Shown here: piece by piece, positions 60,860 through 62,240 of the stretch
How positions within the stretch are numbered: the first letter of the stretch is position 1
Layout of the letters: each line of letters starts with the position of its first letter
Source: Pseudotabrizicola sp.
Lineage (GTDB): Bacteria; Pseudomonadota; Alphaproteobacteria; Rhodobacterales; Rhodobacteraceae
Assembly: GCF_030684215.1 (NCBI RefSeq)
Contig: NZ_JAUXOV010000063.1
Location: 62,001 to 126,000, forward strand
Length of the DNA: 64,000 bases
Reading direction: 5' to 3'
Notes under the pieces: generated by a model
Told to the model about the DNA's origin: nothing
The model's database searches: none
The model's input: only the letters and a program-made list of their open reading frames with translations
Program-made: the position numbers and the translations under genes

Positions 60860-61330
60860 TTACTCAGCCGCTGCCGCCGGAAGGGTGATCGACCCGCCAG
60901 CCGCTTTTATGGCCTCAACAGCCGCAGCCGACGCACCCGAGACAACCAGTTTCACAGCCGATTTGATCTCACCCTTGTTCAGGATGCGGATGCCGTCGCG
61001 CTTGTGGTTGGTCAGGCCAGCGGCCACCAGCATGTCTTCGGTCAGGTCAAGCTTGATGTCCAGCTTGCCGGCCTCGACAAATTTCTCAATCAGGCCAAGG
61101 TTGACGACGGCATACTCCTTGCGGTTCGGCTTGGTGAAGCCGCGCTTTGGAAGGCGACGGTACAGCGGCATCTGGCCGCCTTCGTATCCGCCAATCGCCA
61201 CGCCCGAACGCGATTTCTGGCCCTTGATACCGCGGCCAGCGGTCTTGCCCTTGCCCGAACCGGGGCCACGGGCGACGCGCTTTTGCTTCTTGTTCGCGCC
61301 ATCATTGTCACGAAGTTCATTCAGTTTCAT
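60860..61330 (-). CDS. rplO: 50S ribosomal protein L15
   Basis: A 156-residue L15: [61 protein letters not shown] chose the ATG at 61330; the earlier ATG at 61429 would add a Cys/Arg-rich stretch from the REP-containing gap. Secy follows 109 bp downstream. In nearly all bacteria rpmD precedes rplO directly; here ectC and REPs lie between. Confidence 0.97.
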
Positions 61331-61469
61331 GTCGCACTCTCCATCGCCGGAACATCCCCGCCTGCGACGGGAGGGGACAACACGGCATTTCTTGTTGATT
61401 CTGTAGCCACAGAGGGCCACTCGGGGCATATAATGGCTGTGGGGATGTTAGGCAAGCGGATTGGGGATT

Positions 61470-61491
61470 GGCAGGGTGAACCCCGCCCTAC
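61470..61491 (-). repeat. REP, minus sense, between ectC and rplO
   Basis: It reads GGCAGGGTGAACCCCGCCCT on the plus strand, one mismatch from the inverse REP. It lies 36 bp from the next copy in the opposite (everted) orientation. Confidence 0.88.
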
Positions 61492-61526
61492 CCATGCCCC
61501 AAGAATACGCCCAAAGCAAACCGGGC

Positions 61527-61548
61527 GTAGGGCGGGGTTCACCCCGCC
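61527..61548 (+). repeat. REP overlapping the ectC stop codon
   Basis: An exact REP (core GGGCGGGGTTCACCCCGCC). In the ectC sense, its GGGGTGAACCCC holds the TGA stop (61541-61539), so the last few bases of ectC come from the REP. Confidence 0.9.
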
Positions 61549-61925
61549 GCCGGATAGCTCCCCGAGGCGTCGTGTTTTTCCTGCCCGGTCAACGCAGGGG
61601 TGAAAACGCAGATGATCCGCATATCACCACGCTGTGCGCGTAGTATATGTTCTTCGTGCCGGTCCAGCACATAGACCGTGCCCGGCGACAGCGCGAACAC
61701 CTCGCCACTCGCCACATTCTGCACCTCGCCCTCTCCTTCGATGACGTAATTCGTCTCGACGTGGTTCTTGTAGTGCAACACCTGCTCGGACCCCTCCTTG
61801 CAGATCGTGTCATGCAAGGAATAGCCGAGGCCATCAGCGGCCAGCAAAATGCGGCGGCTCTCAAACGCGTCGCCCTTCACATGAGCAGAGGTGTTGAGGA
61901 TGGCGGCGAGGGAGCGGACGATCAT
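61539..61925 (-). CDS. ectC: L-ectoine synthase (solitary EctC)
   Basis: A 128-residue cupin with all key EctC residues by position: T40, Y52, E57, Y85 and H93. E57/Y85/H93 bind the catalytic iron in characterised EctC. Family text: SRRILLAADGLGYSLHDT, NYVIEGEGEVQNVASGEV, PGTVYVLDRHEEHILRAQ and CVFTPALTGQEKHD. EctC closes N-gamma-acetyl-diaminobutyrate to ectoine. No ectA, ectB or ectD is in the window. It lies in the spc operon between rpmD and rplO, with REPs on both sides; the stop comes from a REP. The true substrate or use is open. Confidence 0.88.
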   Translation of the reverse strand: MIVRSLAAILNTSAHVKGDAFESRRILLAADGLGYSLHDTICKEGSEQVLHYKNHVETNYVIEGEGEVQNVASGEVFALSPGTVYVLDRHEEHILRAQRGDMRIICVFTPALTGQEKHDASGSYPAAG

Positions 61926-62018
61926 GATGCGGCCTTTGGCAAATGCTTCACGGCCACCTTAGCCACCTTCGCGCAAAAGAAAACGCCCCAAGGTTTCCCT
62001 CGGGGCGCAATTCAAACG

Positions 62019-62040
62019 GCAGGGCGGGGTTCGCCCCGCC
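62019..62040 (+). repeat. REP between rpmD and ectC
   Basis: GCAGGGCGGGGTTCGCCCCG then CC: a REP with two changes from the consensus, ending 5 bp from the rpmD stop. Confidence 0.85.
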
Positions 62041-62045
62041 ATCCC

Positions 62046-62240
62046 TTAGCCGCGCTCTTCGATGATCTTCACAAGATGCGAGATCTTGTTGACCATGCCG
62101 CGCACGGAAGGTGTGTCTTCCAGCTCGCGGGTGCGGTTCATCTTGTTCAGGCCCAGACCCTTGAGGGTCGCGGTTTGAATGGCCGGGCGGCGGGCGGCAG
62201 AAGCCACCTGCTGCACAACAATGGTTTTCTTCTCGGTCAT
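62046..62240 (-). CDS. rpmD: 50S ribosomal protein L30
   Basis: A 64-residue L30: [40 protein letters not shown] and [19 protein letters not shown]. It follows rpsE by 2 bp. After its stop come a REP and ectC in place of rplO. Confidence 0.95.

Follow-up and report, generated by a model that had tools for sequence, protein, structure and literature searches.

A solitary EctC-type gene carrying Phe-21 in the gap between rpmD and rplO of Pseudotabrizicola and other Rhodobacteraceae

Introduction

What does a single gene of the ectoine synthase family do between two ribosomal protein genes, in a genome that holds neither ectA nor ectB? The question is posed by a locus of Pseudotabrizicola sp. 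(assembly GCF_030684215.1, contig NZ_JAUXOV010000063.1) within a stretch of 64,000 nucleotides, here called the window, where an ectC-type gene is flanked by rpmD (L30) and rplO (L15), all three on the minus strand (Table 1). The main review (PMC5924519) treats it as unresolved what properties solitary EctC proteins have and what physiological role they play.

What we consider established from the sequence is that the gene is the sole copy in its genome, that its product has the fold and the iron site of the family and a Phe at position 21, that it is under purifying selection in an old position shared with relatives, and that terminator and promoter boxes lie around it. The explanation that we favor, and to which we give an even chance, is that of a functional, selected, and mostly vertically inherited solitary salvage enzyme of the EctC type, housed between the end of one ribosomal transcription unit and the start of the next.

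Table 1. Features at the rpmD-rplO gap, in window coordinates.
Feature	Position	Strand	Description
rplO (L15)	60860..61330	-	probable start of the downstream transcription unit
Structured rplO leader (candidate)	61331..61405	-	stem in two parts, with a loop complementary to the sequence directly preceding the rplO start
Predicted rplO promoter	61426..61456	-	TTGCCT-N17-TATATG; from sequence and conservation
Second REP arm downstream of ectC	61470..61491 (palindrome 61470-61487)		inverted pair
REP-like palindrome over the ectC stop codon	61531..61548		pattern match
ectC-type gene	61539..61925	-	128 aa; Phe-21 variant of the EctC cupin family, solitary
Predicted intrinsic terminator between rpmD and ectC	61983..62008	-	11-bp stem, T-rich tail
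REP-like palindrome upstream of ectC	62023..62040		pattern match
rpmD (L30)	62046..62240	-	probable end of the upstream transcription unit

The Gene and Its Product

The span 61470-62040 comprises the ectC-type gene and the REP-like palindromes around it. The open reading frame scores 171 bits against the NCBIfam model of ectoine synthase (NF009806; cut-off 128), and the protein 167.7 bits against PF06339 (cut-off 27), which places it in the family. When the whole 4.44-Mb genome was searched with PF06339, the window gene was the only match. Family-model searches of the same genome gave no match for EctA and, for EctB, 10 aminotransferases with at most 225 bits, where the cut-off is 552. There was no match for EctD either, an absence that carries less weight because the control genomes gave none. 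The gene is therefore a solitary ectC, without the ectA/ectB cluster that marks a bona fide ectoine synthase gene. The first-pass annotation, which had recognized a lone ectC between rpmD and rplO, had found ectA, ectB, and ectD absent from the window, and had proposed a search of the whole genome for the first two, was right on the gene and on ectA and ectB, and less securely so on ectD.

The AlphaFold2 model of the protein has a mean pLDDT of 91.5, and ranks 1-8 of the Foldseek search are crystal structures of the EctC proteins of Paenibacillus lautus (5onm/5onn/5ono) and Sphingopyxis alaskensis (5bxx/5by5), the closest solved structures; the window protein thus has the cupin fold of ectoine synthase. 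It shares 64 of 124 aligned residues with the former and 60 of 125 with the latter. In the numbering of P. lautus EctC, Ser-23, Arg-25, Thr-40, Tyr-52, His-55, Glu-57, Tyr-84, His-92, Cys-104, and Phe-106 are kept, among them the iron ligands Glu-57, Tyr-84/85, and His-92/93. At position 38 the window protein shares a His with S. alaskensis EctC; P. lautus EctC has Asn there. The earlier claims that Thr-40, Tyr-52, Glu-57, Tyr-85, and His-93 are all present and that fold and iron site are intact are thus supported. What went unmentioned is the missing Trp-21: the protein resembles the two crystallized enzymes in fold, iron ligands, and most substrate residues, and differs from them in that Trp-21 is replaced by Phe and that there is no ect cluster.

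Residue 21 and Relationships of the Protein

Trp-21 is reported as completely conserved in 437 cluster-encoded EctC proteins and has been proposed to drive a flip of the substrate (PMC6344544). When it is exchanged for Ala, P. lautus EctC retains 9.7% of its activity (PMC6344544) and S. alaskensis EctC 26% (PMC4795551). In the available parts of these two papers on P. lautus and S. alaskensis EctC we found no exchange for Phe. The window protein thus lacks a residue characteristic of the cluster-encoded ectoine synthases. Among 173 distinct sequences, position 21 is Trp in 147, Phe in 21, Leu in 1, and Gly in 4; the four with Gly have a Trp three residues earlier, counting back from Ser-23. 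The clade to which the spc-located copies belong has Phe in 20 of its 21 members and Leu in the other, and the sole Phe-21 outside it is that of the long-branch L055. The two typed crystal sequences have Trp.

In the EctC tree, made up of 99 rows (all distinct solitary sequences, every third distinct ectABC locus row, and the two crystal sequences), 18 spc-located rows and three copies from elsewhere (L041, L044, L074) form one group with a support of 90/92. The clade is, as far as sampled, limited to the Rhodobacteraceae. Next to it stand Trp-bearing solitary copies of the same family (L070, then L071 and L043), followed by a group from Burkholderia, Achromobacter, Paracoccus, Pseudomonas, and others. 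A branch with a support of 98/91 sets apart all 40 ectABC-linked rows together with four unlinked ones (L024, L042, L055, L107). With 131 columns the deeper forks are limited in resolution, and the root is arbitrary. By its place in this tree, the window gene belongs with the orphan EctC proteins, near the amidase-linked group and apart from the ectABC enzymes.

The nearest published counterparts are the orphan proteins, mostly of groups 2 and 3, of Czech et al. 2018 (PMC5924519), likewise EctC proteins without ectAB, many of them from Alphaproteobacteria. The window protein falls outside the ectABC group of the 99-row tree, and it differs from the published orphans by Phe-21 and by its recurrent position between rpmD and rplO. 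Its identity to P. lautus EctC is 52%, versus 37 to 42% for 145 published orphans (PMC6344544). Pseudomonas syringae B728a also has only ectC and no ectAB, and its EctC is reported to have given rise to ectoine when expressed in an ectC mutant of H. elongata (PMC5924519); the host is a different one, and the likeness is one of gene content.

Solitary EctC genes of Burkholderia, Achromobacter, and Paracoccus (L105, L097, L109, and relatives) adjoin genes for an amidase, a GntR regulator, and a DUF1989 protein, as assigned by a family search on one representative protein each, and for an amino-acid ABC transporter, as read from the sequence. Such a set would likely constitute an operon for the uptake and breakdown of some amide or amidine. 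At three loci of uncultured Gammaproteobacteria (L079, L082, L086), the neighbor of EctC is a protein of the M24 peptidase family with a distant likeness to ectoine hydrolase; that of L086, the one tested, reached 72 bits against the ectoine hydrolase model (cut-off 613).

Has the substrate changed with residue 21? With Phe-21 instead of the mobile Trp-21, the clade might make or hydrolyze a different cyclic amidine, as the related amidase-operon group may. Phe or Leu stands at position 21 in 21/21 clade members versus Trp in 38/38 ectABC-linked locus rows counted, 12 of the 15 rows of the nearest larger group are amidase-linked, and a new function of orphan EctC proteins is raised as an open option in PMC5924519. 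However, Phe is a conservative replacement, the remaining ligand-binding residues that were checked are either unaltered or the same as those of S. alaskensis EctC, and across genera the spc-located copies share no partner gene, except for the VWA-like gene of the Roseovarius-like loci. We take a change of substrate seriously but lean against it.

The rpmD-rplO Gap

In a family sample of 295 genomes drawn from a larger group, PF06339 was found in 92, with 96 matches in total, all of which were examined with their surroundings: 72 adjacent to EctB, 21 solitary, 2 below threshold, and 1 undecided (G282:C72, L024; no EctB within 1.5 kb of the sequence examined). Five of the 21 solitary genes, in as many of the 295 genomes (G000, G135, G178, G073, G036), lie between L30 and L15. 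Within Pseudotabrizicola, 5 of 16 genomes carry ectC, always in this gap; absence is unsure in G302, G303, G305, and G308, which are 82-87% complete and in which rplO was not found either. A scan of named genomes, confined to the best 80 of 587 confirmed stretches, gave at least 13 loci with ectC in the gap, the matches listed including Tabrizicola oligotrophica, Rhodobacter sp. Har01, and several Roseovarius.

In ectC-free members of the family the gap ranges from 128 nt to more than 1300 nt, and the other genes found in it vary by genus (for example VWA-like, reverse transcriptase-like, and GFA-like, names read from the sequence rather than from a family search). Given this variety across genera, the space between rpmD and rplO is an insertion hotspot, and ectC is a recurrent tenant there. 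The notion that bacteria normally have no gene here is untrue for this family. As to how old and how ordinary the position is, for which the first-pass annotation had suggested a comparison of the rpmD-rplO junction in relatives, the position proved to be long held and at the same time far from universal. No earlier report of ectC between rpmD and rplO came up in a limited literature search, in the parts of the sources available.

Several observations on the gap and on related loci may be added. In L069 (6001-7688), from an uncultured Roseovarius, two ectC copies in the gap flank a gene for a two-domain GNAT acetyltransferase. As EctA is a GNAT protein too, this may be a small unit that acetylates and cyclizes. 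A VWA-like gene (by sequence reading), secreted-looking and on the opposite strand, lies near ectC in the Roseovarius-like loci L067, L069, L073, L074, and L075. An open reading frame of about 48 codons, whose product as translated by eye ends in ...HGGGCRKSSPPG.CCHM....GRVHCH, is found in the gap of L147, L142, L143, and L141, with or without ectC.

Age, Selection, and Inheritance

Pairwise dN/dS ranges from 0.07 to 0.23 (28 pairs from 8 genomes), so the protein is under purifying selection. In 17 spc-located loci, EctC distances were compared with those of S5+L15+SecY: Pearson and Mantel r are both 0.68, with none of 5000 permutations as high, and the Spearman coefficient is only 0.45. The EctC tree gives good support to two pairs, L045+L064 and L046+L068. 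Both are found again in the ribosomal tree, where, as in the EctC tree, L062 is attached to L045+L064. In the EctC tree L046+L068 stands weakly (71/75) beside Pseudotabrizicola, and elsewhere in the ribosomal tree. These comparisons are consistent with ectC being an old, patchy resident of the gap that is mostly inherited vertically, a history included in the even chance given jointly to the favored explanation.

The history could have been different without prejudice to the function: instead of descending with losses, the gene may have spread from one relative to another by homologous recombination in the conserved ribosomal flanks. On the L15+SecY tree of 42 rows, the presence of ectC requires seven changes, a patchiness that such spreading would account for, and exchange together with the flanks would also yield congruent distances. 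Simple loss explains the patchiness too, however, and the well-supported pairs agree between the EctC and the ribosomal trees. These comparisons fit either history; we regard recombination as rather unlikely and continue with mostly vertical descent.

It is very improbable that the gene is a decaying relic of a lost ectABC pathway. The lack of ectA and ectB in the genome and the patchy presence would fit such a relic, but it is contradicted by the dN/dS values, which led us to drop it, by the intact reading frame of the copies within the genus, and by the tree, which sets the window EctC apart from the ectABC enzymes of the family.

The palindromes were another lead. On the 3' side of ectC, 61527-61548 and 61470-61491 form a 22-nt inverted pair, and the palindrome GGCGGGGTTCACCCCGCC is present at 9 places of the window, with 16 strand-matches versus 0.32 expected. 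Palindromes of this kind occur at six places of the window besides the surroundings of ectC, and similar ones at the ectC-free rpmD-rplO gap of a relative (G296, L147). They are thus not specific to an insertion, and they mark the neighborhood rather than the gene. That ectC is a recent insertion linked to REPs, the link having been proposed earlier from the palindromes on both its sides, is hardly credible, and the idea was abandoned in view of these ectC-free sites, the congruence of EctC and ribosomal protein distances over genera, and the position shared with Roseovarius, Tabrizicola, and other genera.

Transcription Around ectC

Is ectC transcribed with the ribosomal genes, as had been supposed when its expression was described as tied to ribosome production? 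Four terminator-like sites were found in the region versus 1.8 expected, and the predicted terminator between rpmD and ectC is a strong one. Over the family, 39 rows were scanned, of which 36 are distinct after the repeats L148, L149, and L154 had been left out. In a loose scan without shuffled control, 32 of the 36 loci have a terminator-like site no more than 130 nt past rpmD (missing in L158, L165, L167, and L170). Upstream of rplO, 28 of the 36 have a TATAYGC box, each with a TTG 20-21 nt before it; the box is missing in L144, L062, L156, L158, L161, L165, L170, and L173. Both elements occur in carriers and non-carriers of ectC alike. The predicted rplO promoter rests on this conservation because a generic sigma-70 scan found no promoter there; nor did the generic scan of the region find a consensus promoter for ectC itself.

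Next to the promoter box lies a leader that, in the window and at 41 other loci of the family, looks like a conserved RNA structure. Its outer stem is GCCG/CGGC, with GCCG in 40 of the 42 leaders. In the inner stem, changes on both sides are seen in 5 of 10 modeled pairs (35 of 42 leaders), and pair 37/51 is broken in 6. In all 42 the loop has a complementarity of 5-8 nt to the sequence immediately preceding the rplO start codon (mean 6.2 versus 1.9 in shuffles; a tally with a looser pattern missed 2). The leader is a candidate for a pseudoknotted ribosomal-protein leader. In Rfam there were two matches, both far below the gathering scores and neither to the rplO leader. When 240 genomes from the class, an uncounted share of them from the family, were searched with the leader model under strict filters, there were three strong matches, all in Rhodobacteraceae and all before rplO, and a fourth, weak one with no rplO nearby. 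A narrow literature search for an rplO leader gave no result.

In this family the spc operon is thus probably split at the ectC gap, with a terminator after rpmD and a promoter and leader before rplO. Since a predicted terminator separates ectC from rpmD and rplO has a conserved promoter box of its own, coupling of ectC to ribosome transcription appears unlikely, and the supposition was given up. Transcription of ectC would probably come from read-through of the rpmD terminator or from a weak promoter of its own rather than from the spc promoter as such.

Ectoine Breakdown and a Possible Role

EutE is needed for the breakdown of ectoine, and the chemistry of EutD is that of EctC in the reverse direction. 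The window genome has eutD (697 bits) and eutE (593 bits) side by side, both over the cut-off, with an aminotransferase gene adjoining them. With both genes present, the organism probably degrades ectoine. EutD and EutE (DoeA and DoeB) belong to other protein families than EctC and are encoded at another site of the genome. EutD of H. elongata is reported to yield the alpha and gamma isomers in a ratio of 2:1, and the gamma isomer is apparently no substrate of EutE (PMC5924519). For DoeA of a methanotroph, the alpha isomer only is reported (PMC7192451).

Is a link between EctC and EutD general? EutD over the cut-off is commoner in genomes of the spc-type clade (5/7 versus 44/288; Fisher p 0.0017) and in those with a solitary EctC (8/21 versus 41/274; p 0.012), both values ignoring relatedness. 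EutE is not associated with either the clade (2/7 versus 38/288; p 0.24) or the solitary carriers (4/21 versus 36/274; p 0.50). Within the genus, 3 of 5 genomes with ectC have EutE versus 4 of 11 without it (p 0.60), and 3 of 5 versus 5 of 11 have EutD (p 1.0). In G306 and G307, two near-complete genomes that carry ectC (G307 is 8% contaminated), no match to EutD or EutE exceeds the cut-off. Co-occurrence is thus not consistent, and because the counts are mixed, recycling linked to EutD is a possible source of substrate but seemingly not a general one.

It was also observed that in L177, L178, and L231, the three Pseudotabrizicola loci from genomes carrying eutD as well as ectC, the eutD/eutE cluster includes an aminotransferase gene and is of another type than that of the ectC-free L232-L235. 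The number is three, the comparison ignores relatedness, and among 13 EutD rows the ectC label is not clustered beyond shuffles (59/500 as low), so no weight is placed on this difference.

How might the favored salvage enzyme work? It would carry out chemistry of the EctC type, in which an N-acyl-diamino acid is closed into a ring with loss of water in an iron-dependent reaction. Its substrate would be the product of neither EctA nor EctB and would instead be imported or arise as a by-product, for example N-gamma-acetyl-diaminobutyrate. A single enzyme could thereby salvage this compound, or an analogue, into ectoine or an analogue of it. With EutD and EutE in the window genome, EctC could return the gamma by-product of EutD to ectoine.

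Concluding Remarks

What distinguishes this gene is the clade-wide loss of Trp-21 in an old, selected solitary EctC that resides in an apparently split spc operon. The arrangement corrects the idea that genes found among ribosomal genes must be co-expressed with them. We suggest tentatively, and with somewhat less than even confidence, that the EctC clade of the Rhodobacteraceae, having lost Trp-21 and long resided between rpmD and rplO, has taken up a new reaction, be it the recycling of the wrong-isomer product of ectoine breakdown or the forming or opening of a cyclic amidine other than ectoine. For the question of what solitary EctC proteins do, the clade offers a clean test case: one gene without a pathway, long under selection, with a single clade-wide change at Trp-21.
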